Of a stretch of 64,000 nucleotides of DNA, positions 37,823 through 47,888 are shown one piece after another. The DNA is from Streptomyces caniferus (lineage in GTDB: Bacteria > Actinomycetota > Actinomycetes > Streptomycetales > Streptomycetaceae): positions 930,001 to 994,000 of the forward strand of contig NZ_BLIN01000005.1 in the NCBI RefSeq assembly GCF_009811555.1, in the 5' to 3' direction. How positions within the stretch are numbered: position 1 is the stretch's first letter; the number at the start of each line of letters is the position of its first letter. Both the position numbers and the translations under genes were made by a program. The notes beneath the pieces were generated by a model. It made no database searches, was not told the origin of the DNA, and was given only the letters and a program-made list of their open reading frames with translations.

Positions 37823-38887
37823 GGTCCCCTCCCGGTCACGAAGGCGTCATCCCCCACACCACATTCCGGCCGAGACGAATTCAGCCGGATCCCTGCCACC
37901 GGTCAAGTGACAGCGGACACACCTTACTCACCCTCAACTCATCGCGAAAACAAGTCGCCTGGAATATCTGGTTCCGCACCTTTTAGCCTCGATGAAATTG
38001 AAAAGGAAACAACTTTTCGCCCGCCCTCCCGAACCCCTCCACTTTGCGATCCCGTTCAACACCGCGCATTTATTTGGCATATTCACCCGTTCACGTGACC
38101 TTCACAACTGCACATCGTTGCCGATTACCCCTCCGTATCCATCGTTTCCATGGAGGGAGGGCGGTCCGACCCCGCGGCCGCCACACCTTCCCGCCGCCCG
38201 GCCCGGGAAAGGCAGGACCCCCACCCCTCTCTCACCCTGGCGGGACCCGCCCCGCAACCCCTGACCGTTCTCGGCCAGTTCAGGACGCTTTCCGGCCATG
38301 CCCGTCGACGGCCGGCACCGAGGGCGGCGCGGGGTCCGGACGGACGGGAGCGCCGGCCCCGGCGGACCCACCCCTCCCCTGAAGAGGCGTGAGCCGCTTC
38401 GCGCGACCCGCCCCGTCACCGGCCCGGCCACCACCGGGCCCCTACGGGGCCGCGGGCCCACTCGAACCGACAACATTCAATGAATTCCTGACGCGCTTGT
38501 GAAACGGAACAGCGGGAAGCCGGAGTCGACGGGCCGGTGCACCGACGGAGCGGGGGCCGCACAATCACGAAGTCGGCTCAAGAGCAACCGAATTAGCGGA
38601 CGCTACTTTCCGGAACCACGCGATCACATGTAGCGTTCGACTGGACCGGAGGCCGTGACTTCACACCACGTCACGGCTGGGTACGGGCATGGGCGCGAGC
38701 GTTCCTGCGGTACGAGCGGAGCGATCGCCCCCGATGGGCGCACCTGCACCACAAGTGTCTGGCCGCCGCCCCGCCTCACCGCCGGACCGCCTCGCGATCG
38801 CTGCGGAGCACCTCAGAACCCTTGAACGTCGAGCACCGCCATGTCTGTCCGTACACGCCTGCTTTGCAAGAGGAATGGGCCCAGATC
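37823..38887. other. Long intergenic region with AT-richer patches upstream of the peptide cluster
   Basis: About 1.06 kb without a supported gene. Segments 37920-38140 and 38470-38660 are clearly less GC-rich than the surroundings, which suits promoters or recently acquired DNA. A 90-codon frame at 37992-38264 has Pro-rich low-quality coding and no ribosome-binding site. The region marks the left edge of the candidate peptide cluster. Confidence 0.45.
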
Positions 38888-39445
38888 ATGTTTATGAACC
38901 CCTCGACGACCCCGCTTGCGTTGCGTCCGGACGCCGACTTCGTCCGGCCGCCCATAGCCGGGCCCGGCGAAGGGCCACCCCTGGCGGTCGACCGGCTACC
39001 CGACGGAAAGTGGCAATTGACCCTGCACGACCTGGAACCCGTATCGGTGCACCGGCTGCCGTCCGACGAGGTCCACATCATCCTGGCGCCACCGGGCGAG
39101 GAACCGTCCCGGCCCGACGAGCCACCGGCCGGCCAGACCCGGCCGGAGCCGATCCGGATCGATACCGCGGCCCGGACGGTCTTCCTCAGAGGACGCCAAC
39201 TCGATCTGCCACGGCTGGAGTTCGACCTGCTCGCCCATCTCGTGCTGCATCCCCGGCGCGCCTTTACCCGGGAACAGCTGATGGCCGCCGTCTGGCCCAG
39301 CTGCCAGTCCAGCACCCGCACGGTCGACGTCCACATCGCCCGGCTCCGCCGTCGCCTGGGCCCCGGCCTGCGCGACACCATCAGCACGGTCTTCGGCATC
39401 GGCTACAAGTACCTGCCGGCCCCACAGGGCGAGGGCCGCGGCTGA
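38888..39445 (+). CDS. Winged-helix (OmpR/PhoB-type) DNA-binding protein without receiver domain
   Basis: A protein of about 185 aa whose C-terminal 100 residues are an OmpR-type winged helix: RIDTAARTVFLRGRQLDLPRLEFDLLAHLVLHPRRAFTREQLMAAVW, then TRTVDVHIARLRRRLG and ISTVFGIGYKYLP. The N-terminal 90 residues are not a receiver domain and I do not recognise them. Such orphan regulators often control adjacent specialised-metabolite genes. The start is uncertain: ATG 38888 is chosen, with an AAGAGG rather far upstream; TTG 38822 in frame would add 22 residues. It is convergent with the HypX-like gene. Confidence 0.82.
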   Translation: MFMNPSTTPLALRPDADFVRPPIAGPGEGPPLAVDRLPDGKWQLTLHDLEPVSVHRLPSDEVHIILAPPGEEPSRPDEPPAGQTRPEPIRIDTAARTVFLRGRQLDLPRLEFDLLAHLVLHPRRAFTREQLMAAVWPSCQSSTRTVDVHIARLRRRLGPGLRDTISTVFGIGYKYLPAPQGEGRG

Positions 39446-39614
39446 CGCACCGTCGCACGACCGCGGGGGACGTATGACAGGGGCCGGTCGCCGACGCTCG
39501 TCGGCCACCGGCCCCGTCCGCGATCCTGCGCCCGCCGGCCGTCCCTGCGCTCTTCGCACGTTCCCCACGACTGGTGCGAGGGCTCCGCGCCGCCGGCACG
39601 GGGGCTCCGACGCC

Positions 39615-41324
39615 TCAGGCCCCGGCGGGCGAGGCGTTCAGATGCGAGGGGGTCCCGGCCGCGGGGTCCTTGCGCACGAAGGCGCGGCGCAGGGCGTGAT
39701 AGGGCTCGTCCGGGTCGAAGAAGATGCGGTGCATACGCGCCAGTTCCTGCTCCCGGTAGGCGGCGAGCGGCCGCTCGGCCTCGTCGCGTTCGCGGGCGGC
39801 CTTCTTCGTGGCGATCCGGGCCTGGGTCGCGGGTGCCGACGCCAGCCGGCCGGCGAGCCGGGCGGTCCGTGCGGCGAAGTCCTGCGCGGTGCAGTCGATG
39901 ATCCGGTCGACCAGGCCGAGCCGTGCTCCGGCCGCCGCGGTCATCGGCAGGGCACGGGCGGTCAGTTGCCCGGCCACCTCGCGACCCGCCCGGCGGGGCA
40001 GCGTATAGGTCCAGTACTCCGAACCGTAGAGCCCCATCAGCCGGTAGTGGGGGTTGAGCACCACGGACGAGCGGCACCACACCTCGTCGGCGGCGAGGGC
40101 CAGCATCGCCCCACCCGCCGCGGCATTGCCGCCGAGCGCGGCGACCACCAGCCGGTCGGTGGTGGTCAGGACGGCGCCCACCAGGTCGTCCATGGCGTTG
40201 ATGTTGGCCCAGGACTCCTCGGCGGGGTCGGCGGCGGCCTCGATGACATGGAGATGGATGCCGTTGGAGAAGAAGTCCCGGCGGCCGCCGAGAACCAGCA
40301 CGGAGGTCGGCCGGGCACAGGCGTGGCGGTAGGCGGCGAGCAGGCGCCGGCAGTGGCCGGTGCTCATCGCGCCGCCGGGGAAGGAGAACTCCAGGAACCC
40401 GGCCGGGCCGTCCTCGCGGTAACGGATGTCGCTCCAGGTGCGGGGGCCGTCGCCGGGGTCGAGCGGGGCCGGGACCTCGGGGAGCCGCGGGAGACGGTCG
40501 CCCAGCGCCAGGGTGGCGGGCAGTTTGGGGGTGGCGGGCTCCCCCGGCGCGCGGGGTGCCCGCAGTTCCGGGATCCATACCGCGCCGTCGGCCGTCGCCC
40601 GGCAGATCGCGCCGCACCGGGTGGCGAGCAGCTCACCGGGCCGGCCCGTCAGGGTGTCCTCGGGGTGCCCGCCGTGCAAATGCCAGGTGTCGCCGAGGAG
40701 TTCGTCGCGCACGCCGGGCTGGGAGTCGGCGGCGCGCAGCTTGCGCACGACGGTGTCGGTGGGGTCGGACCGCCAGTCGATCCGGCGCAGGTCCTGGCGG
40801 AAGGGCGGCCGGGGGCGGCCGGGTCTCGCGGTGTCGGGGAGGTCGGCCTGCGGCTGCGGCCGGTGGGTGCCGGACGCCACGCGGGCGACGGCCGACAGCA
40901 CCGCCTCGATCGCGCCATCGGCGATCTCGTTGCGGTACAGGTCGCTCTTGCCCACGCCGGGGACGGGGAACTCGGCCGCGGCCCAGATGTCGCCGGCGTC
41001 CATCTCCTCATTGGCCTGCAGGACCGTCACCCCCCACCGTTCGGCGCCCAGGTGCACCGCCCAGTCCACCGACGACGGGCCGCGGTCGCCGACGGGGCCG
41101 GGGTGCACGATCAGGCAGGTGTACGCCGACCACACCTCACGGGGCACGGCCGTCTTGAGCATCGGTGCCACGATCAGGTCCGGGGCGTGCCGGCGCACGA
41201 CCTCCAAGAGCGGTGTCCCGCTCGTCACCAGCTCCACGCCCACGTGGTGTCCCCGCTCGCCGAGTTCCGCGTGGACGCGCTGCGTCAGGCTGTTGAACGC
41301 GCCGGCAATGAGCAGAATGCGCAC
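39615..41324 (-). CDS. HypX-like formyltransferase/enoyl-CoA hydratase fusion
   Basis: A 569-aa two-domain protein. The N-terminal part (about residues 1-250) is a formyl-THF-dependent formyltransferase with the HypX-specific motif HPGPVGDRGPSSVDWA. The C-terminal part (about 270-510) is a crotonase/enoyl-CoA hydratase domain (LVLGGRRDFFSNGIHL, ALGGNAAAGGAMLALAADEVW, NPHYRLMGLYGSEYW). HypX makes formyl-CoA and releases CO for the NiFe-hydrogenase active site. No hydrogenase or hyp gene is in this window, and the gene sits in a peptide cluster, so it may have a different acceptor. The GTG at 41324 has GGGGAG 6 nt upstream. The 68-aa gene at 41351 precedes it in the same direction. Confidence 0.88.
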   Translation of the reverse strand: MRILLIAGAFNSLTQRVHAELGERGHHVGVELVTSGTPLLEVVRRHAPDLIVAPMLKTAVPREVWSAYTCLIVHPGPVGDRGPSSVDWAVHLGAERWGVTVLQANEEMDAGDIWAAAEFPVPGVGKSDLYRNEIADGAIEAVLSAVARVASGTHRPQPQADLPDTARPGRPRPPFRQDLRRIDWRSDPTDTVVRKLRAADSQPGVRDELLGDTWHLHGGHPEDTLTGRPGELLATRCGAICRATADGAVWIPELRAPRAPGEPATPKLPATLALGDRLPRLPEVPAPLDPGDGPRTWSDIRYREDGPAGFLEFSFPGGAMSTGHCRRLLAAYRHACARPTSVLVLGGRRDFFSNGIHLHVIEAAADPAEESWANINAMDDLVGAVLTTTDRLVVAALGGNAAAGGAMLALAADEVWCRSSVVLNPHYRLMGLYGSEYWTYTLPRRAGREVAGQLTARALPMTAAAGARLGLVDRIIDCTAQDFAARTARLAGRLASAPATQARIATKKAARERDEAERPLAAYREQELARMHRIFFDPDEPYHALRRAFVRKDPAAGTPSHLNASPAGA

Positions 41325-41350
41325 AGCGGACTCCCCTGGAGCTGGACCGG

Positions 41351-41557
41351 TCAGCGGGTGATCGTCGTGATCGTTCCCCACCGGCGGCCGCCCGGGACCG
41401 GACCCGCGCTACGGGTCACCCGATCGACGGCCGCCGTGCGGCCCAACGACCGTCCGAAGGTCATCTGACTGGCCGTCACATAGTTCCGCTTGTAGATCAT
41501 CTCGATGGAATTCCGCCAAAGTTGGCGCACCTCGTACGCTTCCACAGACCGCGACAT
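41351..41557 (-). CDS. Small protein upstream of the HypX-like gene
   Basis: A 68-aa basic protein (MSRSVEAYEVRQLWRNSIEM at the N-terminus, then IYKRNYVTASQMTFGRSLGRT, with a Thr/Gly-rich C-terminus). Third codon positions are mostly G or C, the stop is 26 nt before the HypX-like start, and the frame is the only plausible one in this gap, so it is probably expressed. No Shine-Dalgarno is visible before the ATG at 41557; it could be leaderless, since AT-rich promoter-like sequence lies directly upstream. It could be a regulator, a leader-binding helper or a second peptide substrate. Family unknown. Confidence 0.5.
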   Translation of the reverse strand: MSRSVEAYEVRQLWRNSIEMIYKRNYVTASQMTFGRSLGRTAAVDRVTRSAGPVPGGRRWGTITTITR

Positions 41558-41566
41558 TGCCGTTAA

Positions 41567-41596
41567 TTGACATTCACTTGGTCATACTTTTACCTT
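41567..41596 (+). promoter_or_regulatory. Candidate promoter of the GCIS-repeat peptide gene
   Basis: TTGACA at 41567-41572 and TACCTT at 41591-41596, separated by 18 bp, in an AT-richer gap. This resembles a housekeeping (HrdB-type) promoter about 70 bp upstream of the peptide start. Confidence 0.45.
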
Positions 41597-41667
41597 CGGA
41601 GCACGGCATCAGCGCAGGTCAGCGCCGTATGCCCCGTTCGTCTTCCGCACTCTCATCGGAGGTTCCC

Positions 41668-41823
41668 ATGGAGCAGCTCATCAAGAAGATGGCCCAGGAC
41701 ACCGTCTGGCAGAACTGGCTGGCCGCCAACTCCGCACAGCAGGCGGCGAAGAACGGCTGCATCAGCGCGGCCCCGAAGTCGGGTTGCATCAGCGCCGCGC
41801 CCAAGGCCGGCTGCATCTCCTGA
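41668..41823 (+). CDS. Candidate RiPP precursor peptide with three Gly-Cys-Ile-Ser motifs
   Basis: A 51-aa peptide. Residues 1-28 (MEQLIKKMAQDTVWQNWLAA then NSAQQAAK) form an amphipathic, leader-like helix. Residues 29-51 contain GCIS three times at a strict nine-residue spacing (Cys31, Cys40, Cys49) joined by AAPK(S/A) linkers, and the protein ends directly after the third GCIS. GGAGG at 41658-41662 is 5 nt from the ATG. GC-rich third positions support coding. It is followed by a hairpin and then an adenylate-forming enzyme, a small unknown protein and an MFS exporter on the same strand, while the HypX-like gene is divergent. The repeat structure suggests a multi-core or multi-site substrate for modification at Cys, Ser or Lys. 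Confidence 0.85.
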   Translation: MEQLIKKMAQDTVWQNWLAANSAQQAAKNGCISAAPKSGCISAAPKAGCIS

Positions 41824-41862
41824 CCCTCGCGCCCTCAGGGGCCCGCAGCGGGCCGGCGATCA

Positions 41863-41887
41863 CCGGGAGCCACCACCCTGCTCCCGG
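41863..41887 (+). terminator. Hairpin between peptide gene and adenylating enzyme gene
   Basis: CCGGGAGC (41863-41870) and GCTCCCGG (41880-41887) form a perfect 8-bp stem, 40 nt after the peptide stop. A likely attenuator allowing excess peptide mRNA. Confidence 0.45.
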
Positions 41888-41897
41888 CCGCCGGCCC

Positions 41898-41936
41898 GCT
41901 CCGGTCACCGGCCGCTCCGGTCACCGGCCGCTCCGG
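41898..41936. repeat. 16-bp tandem repeat upstream of the adenylating enzyme gene
   Basis: Unit GCTCCGGTCACCGGCC occurs at 41898-41913 and 41914-41929, followed by a partial third copy (41930-41936). It lies between the hairpin and the next ribosome-binding site. Each unit contains the palindrome CCGGTCACCGG-like core, so it could bind a protein or just be a slippage product. Confidence 0.6.
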
Positions 41937-41994
41937 ACACCGCACCCCGAATTCCCGTGTGGGGCACCGCATTCCGACCAGGGACGAGGAATCC

Positions 41995-43233
41995 ATGGAT
42001 GGACAGCCGACCGCCGAGGTCATCGAGCAGATACGCGACATTCCGATCTACCGTGAGTCGCTGGCGAAGGGCCACTTCCCCCTGCTCGACAAGCCGGAGA
42101 TCGCGCGCGGCTTCCCCGACAACTGGATGACGCCCCGGCTGGCCACGGCGCTGGAATCCGGAGAAGCGGAGTTCGTTCTCTCCACCGGCACCCACCACGC
42201 CCGGATGCAGATCATCCGGCCGCCGTATTTCCTGCTGCAGTCGTACTACCGGCTGTGGAGCGAACACCCCGATATCGCCGACACCTGGGAATCCGGCTGC
42301 CGGCGGGTCTCGCTGACCACGGTGCTGGCGACGGAACACGTGGCGCGGGTCAATGCCGCACGGCGCGGTACTGCGCCGGAGCCGGTGCCGGCCCTCGCGG
42401 ACCGCCGGCTCGATGCCCGCACCTGCTATCTCAATCTGCGGCTCGACCCGGCGCTGTGGGAGCGCGACGAGGTGGTGCGGATGCTCCAGGAGATCCGGGC
42501 CGCCGCACGAGCCCACCCGCGCGGCCGGTACCACCTCGACTGCTCCGGATATCACCTGGCGCATCTGCTGCGGAAAGTCGCCGAATTCGGGCTGTGGGAC
42601 GACTTCCCGCCGCCCGCCAGCATCATCCACGCCTACGAATACACCCCGGTGAACGTCCGGCGCTTTCTGCACCAGCACTTCGTCTGCCCGGTCATCGACC
42701 TGTTCGGCAGCACCGAGCTCGGGTATCTCTACTACAGCGACCGCCGCGGCACCTACTGGCCGCATCTCGACAAGATGAGCGTCGAACTCCACCCGGTCGC
42801 CGACGGCAGCACGATCTACCAGCTCATCGTCACCAGTGTGCGCAACCCCTTCATGCCGCTGGTCCGGTACCGCTCGGGCGACTGTGTACGCACCCTGGAC
42901 GGGACGCCGGACCCCGGGAAGATCGCCCAATTCTGCGGCCGGGAAAAGGAATTGCTCGGCACTCCGCACGGTCCCGTGGCGCAGGGCGACCTCGACCGGT
43001 GCATCAGTGAGGCGTCCTCGCGCATCTTCGTGTACCAGTTGCAGCTGACCGGCGATACGGCGGCGCGGCTGGTGTACACGACGTTCGACGGCACACCCGT
43101 CGAGCCCGAGCACGCCGCGGAGCTGGAGGACAGCATCGGCGCACTGACCGGGCGGCGCTGCCGGCTCGAACACCGTCCGCACCTCCCCATCGGGAAGTCG
43201 GGAAAGTACGCCTGGCTCGCGACCGGCCTCTGA
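41995..43233 (+). CDS. PaaK/LuxE-like adenylate-forming enzyme of the peptide cluster
   Basis: A 412-aa ANL-superfamily enzyme nearest in style to phenylacetate-CoA ligase, LuxE or F390 synthetase. The ATP loop is STGTHHARMQ (residues 63-72), a short variant of the usual T-S-G-T-T-G loop. The A5-type motif is FGSTE (237-241), A7 is YRSGD (292-296), A8 is CGREKELLGTP, and the C-terminus keeps GKSGKYAW with a catalytic-type Lys. It should activate a carboxylate as an acyl-AMP, perhaps one to be attached to the peptide or the peptide's own C-terminus. GAGGA precedes ATG 41995. It is followed by the DEIWH protein after 68 nt. Confidence 0.85.
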   Translation: MDGQPTAEVIEQIRDIPIYRESLAKGHFPLLDKPEIARGFPDNWMTPRLATALESGEAEFVLSTGTHHARMQIIRPPYFLLQSYYRLWSEHPDIADTWESGCRRVSLTTVLATEHVARVNAARRGTAPEPVPALADRRLDARTCYLNLRLDPALWERDEVVRMLQEIRAAARAHPRGRYHLDCSGYHLAHLLRKVAEFGLWDDFPPPASIIHAYEYTPVNVRRFLHQHFVCPVIDLFGSTELGYLYYSDRRGTYWPHLDKMSVELHPVADGSTIYQLIVTSVRNPFMPLVRYRSGDCVRTLDGTPDPGKIAQFCGREKELLGTPHGPVAQGDLDRCISEASSRIFVYQLQLTGDTAARLVYTTFDGTPVEPEHAAELEDSIGALTGRRCRLEHRPHLPIGKSGKYAWLATGL

Positions 43234-43301
43234 TCCCTCCACACGCCCGCCCCGCCCGGACGCCCGCCCTCGGACATCTGCCCCACCCGGACAGGAGAAG
43301 C

Positions 43302-43814
43302 ATGACCACCGCACCGCGGATATCTCCCGAAGCCCTCGAAGACCTGCTCGGCGAGGCGCTGTACACCGAGGTGGTGACGCATTTCGACGACAAGAGCGCG
43401 GCGCCGCGGGAGTTCGTGGAGCGCCAGGTCACCGAGTGCCTGCGCTACCTCTATCTCGTCTCCCGGCACCACGACCGGCTCGGCGGTCTCTTCCTGCCCG
43501 TCGAGCAGGACATCGACGAGATCTGGCACTACCTCATCCTGCAGACCCGCGAATACCGGGCGCTGTGCGAGGAACGGCTGCCGGGCCGCTTCTTCATCGA
43601 GCACCGCAGCATCGCCTACGAGGACTACCAGCAGGAGCCGGGCCGCGAGCAGGCCCTCGAAGAGGCGCTGCGCTGGATTCCGCTGTACTGCCGGGAATTC
43701 GGCCCGTTCGACGAGGGTGCGCTGCCGCACTGGACCATGGTGCGATTCCTCCATGAACAGATGGGTCTGTCGCTCGCGGCCATCGCGGCGCTGGAACCCA
43801 TGCCGACGCCTTAG
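43302..43814 (+). CDS. Small DEIWH-motif protein of the peptide cluster
   Basis: A 170-aa soluble, acidic protein. The central block VEQDIDEIWHYLILQTREYRALCEERLPGRFFIEHRS (about residues 66-102) recalls the D-x-x-W-H-x-x-I/L-x-x-T-x-x-Y pattern of GRDP-like (glycine-rich domain protein-like) families, which is only a loose match. Conserved-looking His, Asp, Glu and Cys residues would allow metal binding. GGAGAAGC precedes ATG 43302. It sits between the adenylating enzyme and the exporter, all in one direction, so it is probably part of the modification machinery or a peptide carrier. I cannot give a function. Confidence 0.75.
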   Translation: MTTAPRISPEALEDLLGEALYTEVVTHFDDKSAAPREFVERQVTECLRYLYLVSRHHDRLGGLFLPVEQDIDEIWHYLILQTREYRALCEERLPGRFFIEHRSIAYEDYQQEPGREQALEEALRWIPLYCREFGPFDEGALPHWTMVRFLHEQMGLSLAAIAALEPMPTP

Positions 43815-43845
43815 GGCATCGGGCGGGTCCGAACGGAGAGGAATC

Positions 43846-45153
43846 ATGAGCGCTCGCAACGTTGCCCCTGCCGACCGCGAGGTACCGGAACAGCGGCGGA
43901 TCCTGGCTGTCCTGGTGTTCTCCCAGATCCTCAGCGGCGCGGGCCTGGCCGCGGGGATCACCGTCGGCGCGCTGCTCGCCGAGGAGATGCTCGGCTCGAC
44001 CGGTCTGGCGGGCGTGCCCAGTGCACTGTTCACCGCCGGGGCCGCACTCGGCGCCGTCGGCATCGGCCAGATCTGCCGGCGCCACGGCCGGCGCCCCGGT
44101 CTTGCCCTCGGGTACGCCGTCGGGGCGCTCGGCAGCCTCGGGGTCGTGGTGGCGGCCGCCCTGGGCAGTGCGGTGCTGCTCTTCGCGGCGCTGGTGGTCT
44201 ACGGGGCGGGCACCGCGACGAACCTGATGGCGCGTTATGCGGGTGCGGATCTGGCCTCGCCCGCGCGGCGCGGCCGGGCGGTGAGCACGGTGCTCCTCGC
44301 CACCACGCTCGGCGCGGTGATCGGACCCAACCTGGTGACGCTCACGGGTCAGGTCGCGCACTCCTGGGGCATCCCCCGCCTCGCCGGGCCGTTCCTGCTC
44401 GCCGTCGCCGCGTTCGGGGCGGCCTCGGTGACGCTGGCCTGCCTGCTGCGGCCCGATCCGCTGCGGCTGGCCGAGAAGCTGGCCGCGGCACGGGCGGAGG
44501 CGGCGGCCGAGAGCCCCGCCGACGGGGCCGACAGCGCGTCGGATGCCCGGCCGGACCGGCGCGGGCTGGTCACCGGCACCCTGGTCATGATCCTCACCCA
44601 GTTCGTGATGATCGCGGTCATGACCATGACGCCGGTTCACATGCGGGCGCACGGCCATGGCACACAGGAGGCCGGACTGGTCATCGCCCTCCATGTCGGC
44701 GCGATGTTCCTGCCCTCCCCGCTCACCGGTCTGCTGGTCGACCGGGTGGGCCGGCGCTGGATCGCCGGCGCGTCCGGTCCGGTCCTGCTGGCCGCCGGGC
44801 TGGTCGCCGCCATGGCGCCGCACTCCGTACCCGCGCTCGCCACGGCACTGGTACTGCTCGGTATCGGCTGGAACTTCGGGCTGGTCAGCGGCACCGCCCT
44901 GGTGACCGACGCGCTGCCGCCCGCCCGCCGCGCCTCGACACAGGGGCTGGTGGACGTCGGCATCGCCCTCGCGGGCGCGGCGGGAGGCATGTCCTCGGGG
45001 CCGGTCGTCGTCCTGGGGGGCTACCCGACGCTGGCGCTGGCCGGCGGCATCCTCGCGCTGGCGGTCGTACCCCTCCTCGCATGGGCGGCCCGCCGGCCGC
45101 CGCACACCGGCACCGCGCTCGCCGCAGCCCCCGCCGAAAAGGAACAGACATGA
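43846..45153 (+). CDS. MFS exporter of the peptide cluster
   Basis: A 435-aa major facilitator protein with twelve hydrophobic segments. Visible are FSQILSGAGLAAGITVGALLAEEML (helix 1), the loop 2-3 region GQICRRHGRRPGLALGYAVG and a second-half counterpart VDRVGRRWIAGASG. A cytoplasmic Ala/Asp-rich loop (about residues 210-240) separates the two halves. It probably exports the cluster's product or a small molecule. GGAGAGGA precedes ATG 43846, 31 nt after the previous stop. Its stop overlaps the ATG of a possible 35-aa peptide (45150). Confidence 0.92.
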   Translation: MSARNVAPADREVPEQRRILAVLVFSQILSGAGLAAGITVGALLAEEMLGSTGLAGVPSALFTAGAALGAVGIGQICRRHGRRPGLALGYAVGALGSLGVVVAAALGSAVLLFAALVVYGAGTATNLMARYAGADLASPARRGRAVSTVLLATTLGAVIGPNLVTLTGQVAHSWGIPRLAGPFLLAVAAFGAASVTLACLLRPDPLRLAEKLAAARAEAAAESPADGADSASDARPDRRGLVTGTLVMILTQFVMIAVMTMTPVHMRAHGHGTQEAGLVIALHVGAMFLPSPLTGLLVDRVGRRWIAGASGPVLLAAGLVAAMAPHSVPALATALVLLGIGWNFGLVSGTALVTDALPPARRASTQGLVDVGIALAGAAGGMSSGPVVVLGGYPTLALAGGILALAVVPLLAWAARRPPHTGTALAAAPAEKEQT

Positions 45154-45257
45154 ACATCCCTTCGCTGAACGGATGTTCCCGGCTGCCTTCCGGGGAATTC
45201 TGGAAACTTGGCGTCATTTCTCGTTATCACGCCGGAAACCTGGATGCTGCACTGTGA
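45150..45257 (+). CDS. Possible 35-aa Cys-containing peptide coupled to the exporter
   Basis: An ATG overlapping the MFS stop (ATGA, 45150-45153) with AAGGAA 6 nt upstream opens a 35-codon frame: MNIPSLNGCSRLPSGEFWKL then GVISRYHAGNLDAAL. It contains an NGCS motif that echoes the NGCIS of the 51-aa precursor. Against it, only about 57% of third codon positions are G or C, far below the neighbours, so it could be chance. If real it would be a second peptide or a small cofactor of the exporter. Confidence 0.35.
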   Translation: MNIPSLNGCSRLPSGEFWKLGVISRYHAGNLDAAL

Positions 45258-45295: not shown

Positions 45296-45721
45296 ATGAT
45301 GCGGAAGGACACGTCGGCAGCGGGCATATCCGTTCTGCGACTGTGCCGTATGTCGCTGACCGCCCTGCTGGTGGTCCTGGCGTTCCTGCTGAGCGGGGCG
45401 GCGTCGGCGCCCGGTGCGGCGAAGGCCGCGTTCACCACCCCGTCAGCGGCGAAGTCCGCCGGCGCCGCACCGGCCGTCAAGCCCGGCTACGACGGCACGG
45501 AGGAGAAGAGCAAGCGGGAGTCCGAGCGCGGCCAGCCGCGGCGCACCGCCCGTACCTCCGTCGGCGTTCCCCAGCACACCGGCCGGCCGCTCCCGCCGTT
45601 CGGCGCGAGGACCGTGGGGCTCGTCGCCACGGCGGCCTCCGGGGCCCCGGCGGGCAGCTCCACCAAGGCCGCGTCCAGACCGGCCGCCCTCTCCGTCCTG
45701 CACTGCGTCTTCCGCTGCTGA
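45296..45721 (+). CDS. Small secreted or membrane-anchored protein with C-terminal Cys pair
   Basis: A 141-aa protein with an N-terminal signal or anchor (about residues 14-42, CRMSLTALLVVLAFLLSGAA then SAPGAAKA), a charged region (GTEEKSKRESERGQPRRTAR), and a C-terminus ending HCVFRC (two Cys four residues apart). No domain is recognised. ATG at 45296; a second ATG follows directly. It lies 38 nt past the possible 35-aa peptide and upstream of the carbonic anhydrase gene in the same direction, so it may belong to either group. Cys at the extreme C-terminus suggests a disulfide or metal site outside the cell. Confidence 0.65.
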   Translation: MMRKDTSAAGISVLRLCRMSLTALLVVLAFLLSGAASAPGAAKAAFTTPSAAKSAGAAPAVKPGYDGTEEKSKRESERGQPRRTARTSVGVPQHTGRPLPPFGARTVGLVATAASGAPAGSSTKAASRPAALSVLHCVFRC

Positions 45722-45813: not shown

Positions 45814-46416
45814 GTGGAGACCTTCATTCAGCATGCCCGGGGCCTGACGGCCCGTATCGCCGACCGGCGGGAAGAACAGGAGACCTACGGCCGGCTCGCC
45901 GCCGGACAGTCCCCCCTCGCCCTGTTCATCACCTGTTCCGACTCACGGGTCGTCCCGTCCCTGATCACCGGGGCGCGGCCCGGCGAACTCTTCGAACTGC
46001 GCACCGCCGGCAACGCCGTGCCCGTCTACCGCGAGGACATGGCGGCCTGCGCGGAAGCGGCGACCATCGAGTACGCGATGCGCGTCCTGGGCGTGGCCGA
46101 CATCGTGGTGTGCGGTCATTCGCACTGCGGCGCGGTCGGTGCCAGGGCCCGCGGTGAGGACCTGACCGGCGCGCCCGCCGTACGCGACTGGCTGGCGCAG
46201 CAGCTCTCCGACCAACTGCCCAGGGACGAGGAACCGACCGTCGCCGCCGCGGTCCAGCAGCATGTGCGCGAGCAGGTCGACCGGCTGCGGGGCTACCCCT
46301 GCGTCCAGGAGCGGCTGGCCGCCGGCGAGGTGAATCTGCACGGGTGGTTCTACGAAGTGCACACCGGCCTGGTGGCCTCGCACCACCCCGCCTCCGACCT
46401 GTTCCTCCCGCTGTGA
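45814..46416 (+). CDS. Beta-class carbonic anhydrase
   Basis: A 200-aa enzyme that interconverts CO2 and bicarbonate. The zinc ligands are Cys41 (CSDSR, with the catalytic Asp43-Arg45 pair), His102 and Cys105 (CGHSHCGA). Length and order fit plant/bacterial beta-CAs. GTG 45814 follows GGAG by 8 nt. The SulP transporter gene begins 17 nt after its stop, so both are one operon; SulP-CA pairing points to bicarbonate uptake or CO2 supply. Confidence 0.95.
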   Translation: METFIQHARGLTARIADRREEQETYGRLAAGQSPLALFITCSDSRVVPSLITGARPGELFELRTAGNAVPVYREDMAACAEAATIEYAMRVLGVADIVVCGHSHCGAVGARARGEDLTGAPAVRDWLAQQLSDQLPRDEEPTVAAAVQQHVREQVDRLRGYPCVQERLAAGEVNLHGWFYEVHTGLVASHHPASDLFLPL

Positions 46417-46433
46417 AGGCGGGTGGGCACCTC

Positions 46434-47888
46434 ATGAAGCGCTTCACCTCCTTCCGGGCGGACTTCACCGCCTCCCTCGTCGTGTTCCTCGTGGCCGTCC
46501 CGCTGTGTGTCGGGGTGGCCGTCGCCTCCGGGGTCCCGGCCGAACTGGGCCTGGTCACCGGTGTGGTCGGCGGGCTGCTCACCGGCCTGCTGCCGGGCAG
46601 CAGCCTCCAGGTCAGCGGCCCCGCCGCCGGTCTGACGGTGCTGGTCTTCGAAGCCGTCAAGGAGTACGGCATCGGCGCGCTCGGCGCACTGGTACTGGCG
46701 GCCGGCGCGCTGCAACTGGCCATGGGCGCCCTGAAGTTGGGGCGCTGGTTCCGGGCGATTTCGGTCGCCGTGGTCCAGGGCATGCTGGCCGGCATCGGCC
46801 TGGTCCTGATCGCCGGACAGCTCTACGCCCTCGCCGACGCCAAGGCGCCGGGCAGCGGACTCGCCAACCTCGGTGGCATGCCGGGCCTGATCACCGCCAC
46901 CGCGGGGTCGGGCACGGCCCTGGCCGCGCTCGCCATCGGCACCGGCACCATCGCCGTCCTGGTGCTGTGGCCGCGCTGGCGGCGCGCCGCGCGGATCCTC
47001 CCCGCGCCGCTGGCCGCGGTGGCGCTCGCCACCGTCGCGGTGTGGGCGCTGGATCTGCCCGTCGCACGCGTCGAGGTGAGCGGGCTGCTGCACGCGATCC
47101 AGCCGCCCGGCCTCGCCGACCTCGGCCGGCTGACCGAGATCGGGGTGCTCGGCACGGTCCTCGCCTTCGCGCTGATCGCGTCCGCCGAGTCCCTCTTCAG
47201 CGCGGCCGCGGTCGACCGGCTGCACGACGGGCCGCGCACGGAGTACGACAAGGAACTGATGGCCCAGGGCGCGGGCAACGCCGTCTGCGGCCTCCTCGGC
47301 GCCCTGCCGATGACCGCCGTCATCGTCCGCAGCGCGGCCAATGTGCAGGCGGGCGCGAAGACCAAGGCCTCGCGGGTGCTGCACGGTGTCTGGCTGCTGG
47401 TGTTCGCCGCGGCGTTCCCGGCCGCGCTGGGTGTGGTGCCGGTCGCCGCGCTGGCGGGCGTACTGGTCCACGCGGGCTGCAAGCTCATCCCGCTGCGCGA
47501 GCTGCGGCCGCTGTGGCGCGAGCACCGGGGCGAGGCGGTGGTCCTCCTGGTCACGGCCCTCGCGATCGTGACGGTCAACATGTTCGAGGGCGTCCTCATC
47601 GGCCTGCTGATGGCGATCGCGAAGACGGCCTGGGAGACCTCCCACGTCCACCTCGACATCCACACCCCGGACGACGAGGACGAACCGGTGACGGTACGCG
47701 CCGTCGGCAACGCCACGTTCCTGCGGCTGCCCAAGATCCTCGACCAGTTGGAAGCACTGCCCGCCGACCGGAAGGTGGAGCTCGACCTGACCGGGCTGCG
47801 CCATCTCGACCACGCGTGTGGCACCGCGCTGACGAACTGGGCCGAGCAGCACCGTCGTACCCGGCGGGCGGTGGAGCTGGTGTCCTGA
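46434..47888 (+). CDS. SulP-family anion transporter (likely bicarbonate)
   Basis: A 484-aa SulP transporter. The N-terminal half has [26 protein letters not shown] and the family signature region [18 protein letters not shown]; a short STAS-like C-terminal domain (about residues 415-480, [25 protein letters not shown]) follows the membrane part. Members move sulfate or bicarbonate. Coupling to a carbonic anhydrase gene 17 nt upstream favours bicarbonate, possibly with sodium. ATG at 46434 has a GGGTGGG-type weak ribosome-binding site. A strong terminator follows at 47898-47939. Confidence 0.93.

Follow-up and report, generated by a model that had tools for sequence, protein, structure and literature searches.

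A three-gene cassette of a GCIS-repeat peptide, a PaaK-like adenylating enzyme and a DEIWH protein as a candidate RiPP-type cluster

We report on a cassette found in Streptomyces caniferus, in a stretch of 64,000 nucleotides that is called the window below (positions 930,001-994,000 of NZ_BLIN01000005.1, i.e., contig C5 of the 9.15-Mb assembly). The cassette encodes a 51-residue peptide with repeated Gly-Cys-Ile-Ser (GCIS) motifs, a PaaK-like adenylating enzyme and a protein named after its DEIWH motif, commonly with an exporter of the MFS type. The three genes are inherited together and in the same order in two phyla, the peptide family is under purifying selection, and the enzyme has a complete set of adenylation motifs. 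A preliminary description of the window had proposed a cluster for a ribosomally synthesised and post-translationally modified peptide (RiPP), and our comparisons support a candidate cluster of this type made of the GCIS peptide, the adenylating enzyme, the DEIWH protein and the MFS exporter. We give an even chance to a more specific reading, in which a multi-core, RiPP-like precursor is acylated on its cores by the PaaK-like enzyme, with the DEIWH protein as its partner, cleavage at lysines and export by the MFS protein. The cassette is laid out as follows.

41668..41823, + strand: precursor-like peptide, 51 aa, with a conserved leader and three K-x-G-C-I-S repeats
41824..41994, + strand: spacer from the peptide gene to the enzyme gene, in most related loci with a strong hairpin just past the peptide stop
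41995..43233, + strand: PaaK-like adenylating (ANL) enzyme, 412 aa; the open reading frame (ORF) opens at GTG 41959
43302..43814, + strand: DEIWH protein, 170 aa, the constant partner in the cassette, all-helical by prediction
43846..45153, + strand: MFS exporter, common in the cassette, not universal

Co-inheritance and distribution of the cassette

The components of the cassette are almost always found together. We scanned the best 80 of 85 loci from named genomes, which were found via the PaaK-like protein, so that peptides lacking this gene next to them could not appear. A peptide orthologue is encoded directly upstream of the PaaK-like gene, on the same strand, in all 80 loci, and the DEIWH gene is directly downstream in 78; the two misses (L087 and L112) occur because the contig ends there. 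In a second set of 39 loci from Streptomyces genomes, which shares genomes with the first (e.g., L127 and L039), the peptide could be traced in 38 and the DEIWH gene in all 39. The genes can also overlap, in 17 of 78 cases between the PaaK-like and DEIWH genes and in 24 of 55 between the DEIWH and MFS genes, where the MFS gene lies within 3 kb after the DEIWH gene in 55 of the 80 loci. The genes of the presumed modifying enzymes are thus co-inherited with the precursor gene, as expected of a RiPP cluster, and the DEIWH gene is real and strongly conserved across relatives. The one locus of the second set in which no peptide was found, L161 (G303:C17:627000-645000), is a decayed cassette: its PaaK-like gene is truncated to the C-terminal part, whereas the DEIWH and MFS genes are kept.

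The preliminary description had asked whether GCIS peptides and the adenylating enzyme co-occur in other genomes, and they do so across genera. Ten of the 80 loci are outside Streptomyces: one in Kitasatospora, six in five lineages of Pseudonocardiaceae (Kutzneria, Sciscionella, Actinokineospora, two in Amycolatopsis and one further) and three in Sorangium. Within Streptomyces, a strong full-length match was found in 48 of 392 genomes, i.e., about one in eight. Searched phylum-wide with the DEIWH profile (E<=1e-8, at most nine candidates scored per genome), one of 396 genomes was positive, the window's own, and the distribution of the cassette thus looks patchy.

The patterns of relatedness suggest that the cassette has moved between phyla. 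A tree of 78 rows of PaaK-like and DEIWH sequences (77 loci and the window), made by a quick method, rooted at the midpoint and leaving out L087, L112 (contig end, no DEIWH gene) and L106, places the Sorangium sequences inside a group that is otherwise of Pseudonocardiaceae, with a support of 99 for the group and 85 for the inner fork. Since the Sorangium sequences are nested among actinobacterial ones, the cassette most likely passed from actinobacteria into Sorangium. Spread by plasmids was also considered and rejected, as no match to the cassette was found in a plasmid collection.

Peptide, adenylating enzyme and DEIWH protein

The peptide has the make-up of a RiPP precursor: it is ribosomally encoded and joins a conserved leader to a separate, repeated core. 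In the window its gene (41668-41823) is preceded by a GGAGG Shine-Dalgarno sequence and encodes, as first described, three GCIS motifs at a spacing of nine residues. At E<=1, 76 homologues came up in a protein search, all from Streptomyces where named, and a profile built from 32 members gave 222 matches at E<=0.01; among the 120 matches listed, Sorangium and Kitasatospora are represented. Four residues of the leader (L4, W14, W17 and N21) are invariant in the peptides of the 80 loci, and S22 is found in 79. The second half consists of two to six copies of x-G-C-[I/V]-S, with 241 motifs in all (227 GCIS, 12 GCVS, one GYIS and one GCIC). A lysine stands at position -2 of the motif in 161 of 161 later repeats and in 77 of 80 first repeats, and the spacers differ from one another in length and in sequence (AAPK, ATPK, VAK, KK, ADK, etc.). 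In Sorangium they are reduced to KK or RK, and the peptides are nearly pure tandem arrays of KAGCIS. The motif is the exact C-terminal end of 73 peptides (72 GCIS and one GCVS), the other seven having extra residues (R, KG, RSQNRGS and others). This variation in repeat number and spacers around a fixed short motif is typical of multi-core precursors.

The peptide is real and its family evolves under purifying selection. The pooled ratio of nonsynonymous to synonymous substitution rates (dN/dS, NG86) is 0.27 overall, with a lower value for the repeat half (0.14) than for the leader (0.45), a pooled pairwise estimate from only the 27 ungapped 51-aa sequences. The 70 nt past the peptide stop fold into a strong hairpin with z<-1.5 in 64 of the 80 loci (40 mononucleotide shuffles each), which is possibly an attenuator allowing surplus production of the peptide.

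The similarity of the adenylating enzyme to PaaK, which the preliminary description had pointed out, is borne out, although it is weak. The enzyme starts better at 41995 (MDGQPTAEV...) than at 41959, because its relatives start alike; residue numbers are counted here from the GTG at 41959. Alignment of 30 enzymes, including those of Sorangium, shows that S75-T-G-T78, E253, Y304-R-x-G-D308, R328 and K416 are invariant. The STGT and YRxGD stretches, E253, R328 and K416 have known roles as adenylation motifs, and by its sequence the enzyme thus has the set complete. The structure model (mean predicted local distance difference test, pLDDT, of 89.6) matches PaaK1 first and then others, including NatL2, AjiA1 and ClxA, with fold matches to PaaK proteins down to E 3.5e-17. 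Motifs and fold together place the enzyme in the PaaK-like branch of the ANL enzymes. Among solved relatives searched by sequence, ClxA is best (E 2e-7), followed by AjiA1 and NatL2.

These relatives suggest what the enzyme may do. ClxA and NatL2 are described as forming an aryl adenylate and handing it directly to an amine or a phenol, free of coenzyme A (CoA), with a C-terminal cap extension that completes the active site of the partner, and AjiA1 as 90% identical to NatL2 (PMC12519233). Given this direct coupling, a direct transfer of the acyl group to a nucleophile of the peptide is the economical reading of the cassette enzyme. The likeness is one of shared ANL/PaaK fold and of best sequence matches among solved structures; ClxA and NatL2 serve benzoxazole-type small molecules, whereas the cassette enzyme sits beside a peptide gene. 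Neither ClxA nor NatL2 is known to be associated with a peptide gene.

The 37 aligned sequences of the DEIWH protein have a mean column identity of 67%, with E45, E68-Q69, D72-E73, W75-H76, H101-R102 and W144 invariant, and its model is all-helical (mean pLDDT 88.3). Its constant presence suggests that it would be needed for the chemistry or for recognition of the peptide. As the fold has no usable match in the PDB, its role is a guess, and so is the idea that the E-x-x-H and the neighbouring acidic residues might bind a metal. A few relatives are labelled 'glycine-rich domain-containing protein' in public records, and membership in the GRDP family (PF07173) was rejected, since none of the 37 members has a GRDP-like match in Pfam. 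Precomputed labels assign PF27765 to relatives of the DEIWH protein; the Pfam scans made here did not report PF27765.

Possible chemistry and its alternatives

Multi-core RiPP precursors, of the cyanobactin and microviridin types, consist of a leader followed by repeated cores. The cassette resembles these systems in its short encoded peptide, its conserved leader and its near-identical, spaced cores, as well as in the adjacency of the modifying genes and the frequent presence of an exporter. It differs in its enzymes. When the cassette proteins of the window were scanned against Pfam and NCBIfam, none of the usual RiPP enzymes was found, as had been noted at first; LanM, YcaO, radical SAM, ATP-grasp and lasso-pair enzymes are all missing, and the one recognised enzyme is the ANL adenylating enzyme, accompanied by the orphan helical protein. 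No enzyme that defines the lanthipeptide, YcaO azole, radical SAM, lasso or graspetide classes was found among the scanned cassette proteins, to which the family scans were confined. The cassette thus looks RiPP-like in kind, with an enzyme set that fits none of these tested classes. In the part of the literature searched (preprints and most subscription papers being outside its scope), we found no description of it.

In the multi-core reading, the PaaK-like enzyme would activate a small, perhaps aromatic, carboxylic acid with ATP to give an acyl-AMP and would pass the acyl group directly to a nucleophile in every GCIS core, a transfer proposed as direct because neither a CoA gene nor a carrier gene is a recurrent part of the cassette. 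The near-invariant cysteine is the most probable site, and otherwise the serine. The preliminary description had also named lysine, and we think cysteine or serine the more plausible site. The DEIWH protein would recognise the leader or complete the modification. Housekeeping proteases would then cut at the lysines of the spacers, the MFS protein would export the short products, and a class B flavin monooxygenase of the Baeyer-Villiger (BVMO) type might tailor them in certain lineages. Stated in full, the cassette would be the first member of a RiPP class of its own: a stand-alone PaaK-like enzyme and an obligate helical partner of unmatched fold would acylate, and perhaps aroylate, each Cys or Ser of tandem GCIS cores, giving two to six short acylated peptides per precursor, and the class would have passed between Actinomycetota and Myxococcota. 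This fuller claim is tentative, and we think it somewhat likelier to fail than to hold.

Several results weigh against the multi-core reading. The enzyme resembles ClxA and NatL2 weakly, with an identity of about 15-20% when the structures are aligned, and its top fold match is a CoA ligase, PaaK1, so that it may itself be a CoA ligase, or use another acid. None of the 30 members has a Pfam AMP-binding match at E<=1, which implies a divergent ANL branch, and the DEIWH fold gave no usable match in the PDB. On the side of the peptide, the leader is less constrained than the core by the pooled pairwise estimate, and the repeat is poor in chemically unusual residues apart from Cys and Ser. Neither a gene to supply the acid nor a protease is seen among the widely recurrent neighbour families, and 25 of the 80 loci, some of which are cut by contig ends, gave no MFS gene just downstream. 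Finally, we infer the chemistry of the cassette from its sequences.

The same observations can be read in other ways. The enzyme might instead adenylate the C-terminal serine of the peptide, or of freed GCIS units, for attack by the cysteine or the N-terminus, giving an autoinducer-like thiolactone or small macrocycle. The exact C-terminal position of the motif in 73 of 80 peptides fits this idea, as do the cysteine placed as a nucleophile two residues ahead of the terminal serine and the capacity of PaaK-like enzymes to produce acyl-AMPs. However, the internal cores would have no free carboxylate until cleaved, seven peptides run on past the motif, and the closest solved relatives by sequence use small aryl acids. 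We hold it to be unlikely.

The peptide might also be a carrier or scaffold, as a carrier protein is or the peptide of a PEARL system, with acyl groups bound as thioesters to the cysteines of the repeat, processed there by the DEIWH protein and set free in a product that has no peptide part. The near-invariance of Cys and Gly in the repeats, the harmlessness of a varying repeat number and the lack of a recurrent protease would all suit such a carrier. In contrast, the conserved spacers ending in Lys and the constancy of Ile/Val and Ser suggest that the core sequence matters, and the GCIS repeats are internal, whereas a PEARL scaffold grows at its C-terminus. This account is rather improbable.

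We think it distinctly unlikely that the peptide is a small functional protein, e.g., one binding a metal or a thiol, that regulates its two partners or is modified by both. A repeat of cysteines in a short and stable family is compatible with such a role, and strict co-inheritance would be expected of functional partners too, but the number of repeats (two to six) and the spacers vary freely around a fixed motif, and the gene of an exporter often overlaps the cassette.

If, as the multi-core reading has it, the enzyme acylates ribosomally made cores, the reaction would be of a type outside the usual RiPP classes, and the system would be small enough to suit peptide engineering. It would also make a clean test case, with three genes, one defined core motif and predicted masses. 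For unmodified products the calculated [M+H]+ is 379.165 for GCIS, 450.202 for AGCIS, 466.197 for SGCIS, 493.208 for NGCIS, 833.419 for SGCISAAPK and 860.430 for NGCISAAPK. The occurrence of such a three-gene system of a peptide, an adenylating enzyme and an orphan helical protein in the sampled Streptomyces genomes, and its presence in Sorangium, add to its interest.

HypX and the other neighbours

The genes around the cassette in the window are the following.

38822..39445, + strand: winged-helix regulator (Trans_reg_C), a clade-local neighbour outside the conserved cassette
39615..41381, - strand: HypX-like formyltransferase/crotonase, a neighbour outside the cassette, adjacent and divergent to it
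45335-45721: small protein ending VLHCVFRC, probably secreted (judged by eye), flanked by the MFS gene and the carbonic anhydrase gene
45817-46413 and 46344-47888: genes for a carbonic anhydrase and a transporter of the SulP type

Domain scans of the window's proteins bear out the HypX-like domains, the winged-helix regulator and the MFS protein. HypX is a formyl-CoA/CO synthase that serves NiFe hydrogenase, and the preliminary description had proposed that its formyl or carbon monoxide (CO) chemistry modifies the GCIS peptide. Apart from the adjacency, little agrees with this. HypX is beside 11 of the 80 cassettes, all in Streptomyces and mostly with wider synteny, and beside 11 of the 39 loci of the second set. 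The remaining loci lack it, except that adjacency cannot be told for three of the 80 (L056, L105 and L108, with less than 3 kb of upstream DNA).

HypX follows the hydrogenase instead. In 121 Streptomyces genomes (G000-G120; HypX called at E<=1e-40, hydrogenase at E<1e-8), a hydrogenase is present in all 51 HypX-positive genomes vs 18 of the 70 HypX-negative ones (Fisher p 8e-19); like the other statistics given here, this takes no account of the relatedness among genomes. Homologues of HypX in genomes free of hydrogenase, the search for which had been suggested at first, were thus not found in this sample. Of the HypX-positive genomes, 38 had coordinates for both genes (35 plus G023, G071 and G084, where the genes are on different contigs), and in 32 of them no more than 15 kb separates HypX from the hydrogenase. 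The preliminary description noted the lack of a hydrogenase in the window; the window alone was not scanned for one, and the remark misleads, because the same genome encodes a NiFe hydrogenase large subunit at C3:466915-468471 (L122), while its sole full-length HypX match is that of the window, on another contig. A hydrogenase elsewhere in the genome that needs this HypX had been named at first among the observations that would refute the proposal, and the presence of such an enzyme is borne out. All 12 genomes with a HypX-neighboured cassette (the window's and 11 others) have a hydrogenase match below 1e-40. In G090, the cassette is intact beside a HypX-like scrap of 42 residues, and the genome has no hydrogenase match.

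With both the formyltransferase and the crotonase domain and a genus-wide link to NiFe hydrogenase, the window's protein has the traits of a HypX of hydrogenase maturation and is not a member of the cassette. As it tracks the hydrogenase and adjoins few cassettes, it was rejected as a cassette enzyme and is a bystander, which most likely still serves the CO ligand of the hydrogenase even though the genes lie apart in this clade. HypX chemistry is refuted as a family-wide mechanism, and we see almost no chance that it acts on the peptide.

Two further genes were first described as parts of the cluster. The winged-helix regulator is clade-local, with matches of 34-38% in some other loci, and was rejected as a regulator of the cassette. 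A 68-aa ORF (41351-41557, - strand) was rejected as a gene: when it is aligned with the three full-length DNA matches closest to it, there are 11, 6 and 31 gap columns, numbers which in two of the three are not multiples of three and break the frame, so that the ORF is probably intergenic and, as a coding sequence, probably spurious.

The families that recur in more than 11 of the 80 loci are only those of the DEIWH protein, the PaaK-like enzyme, the MFS exporter, SulP and carbonic anhydrase. Of 18 cassette genomes, 12 have carbonic anhydrase no farther than 10 kb from the cassette, but the enzyme is common in the genus, being present in 74 of the 121 Streptomyces genomes (E<=1e-50). Near the cassette, in many Streptomyces, the carbonic anhydrase and SulP genes lie on either side and on either strand, with differing identity; they may be plain neighbours or may share ancestry or function with the cassette.

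In 11 loci a BVMO-type monooxygenase is encoded no farther than 10 kb from the cassette. These loci belong to four genera, namely Streptomyces, Sorangium, Actinokineospora and Amycolatopsis (L092, L098, L099, L103, L105, L106, L107 and L110, and further off L059, L060 and L085); L164, L165, L166 and L167 are further BVMO loci. Among the 121 Streptomyces genomes, an orthologue (at least 68%) is present in four of 18 cassette-positive genomes vs none of 103 cassette-negative ones (Fisher p 0.0004). It adjoins the DEIWH gene in G017 and is away from the cassette in G090, G115 and G094, where the copy is in two pieces. The BVMO genes of Sorangium So ce26 (L098) and of G090 (L164) have a beta-carbonic anhydrase-like gene nearby. 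The small protein at 45335-45721 has similar matches in 18 of the 80 loci, mainly in kin of the window.

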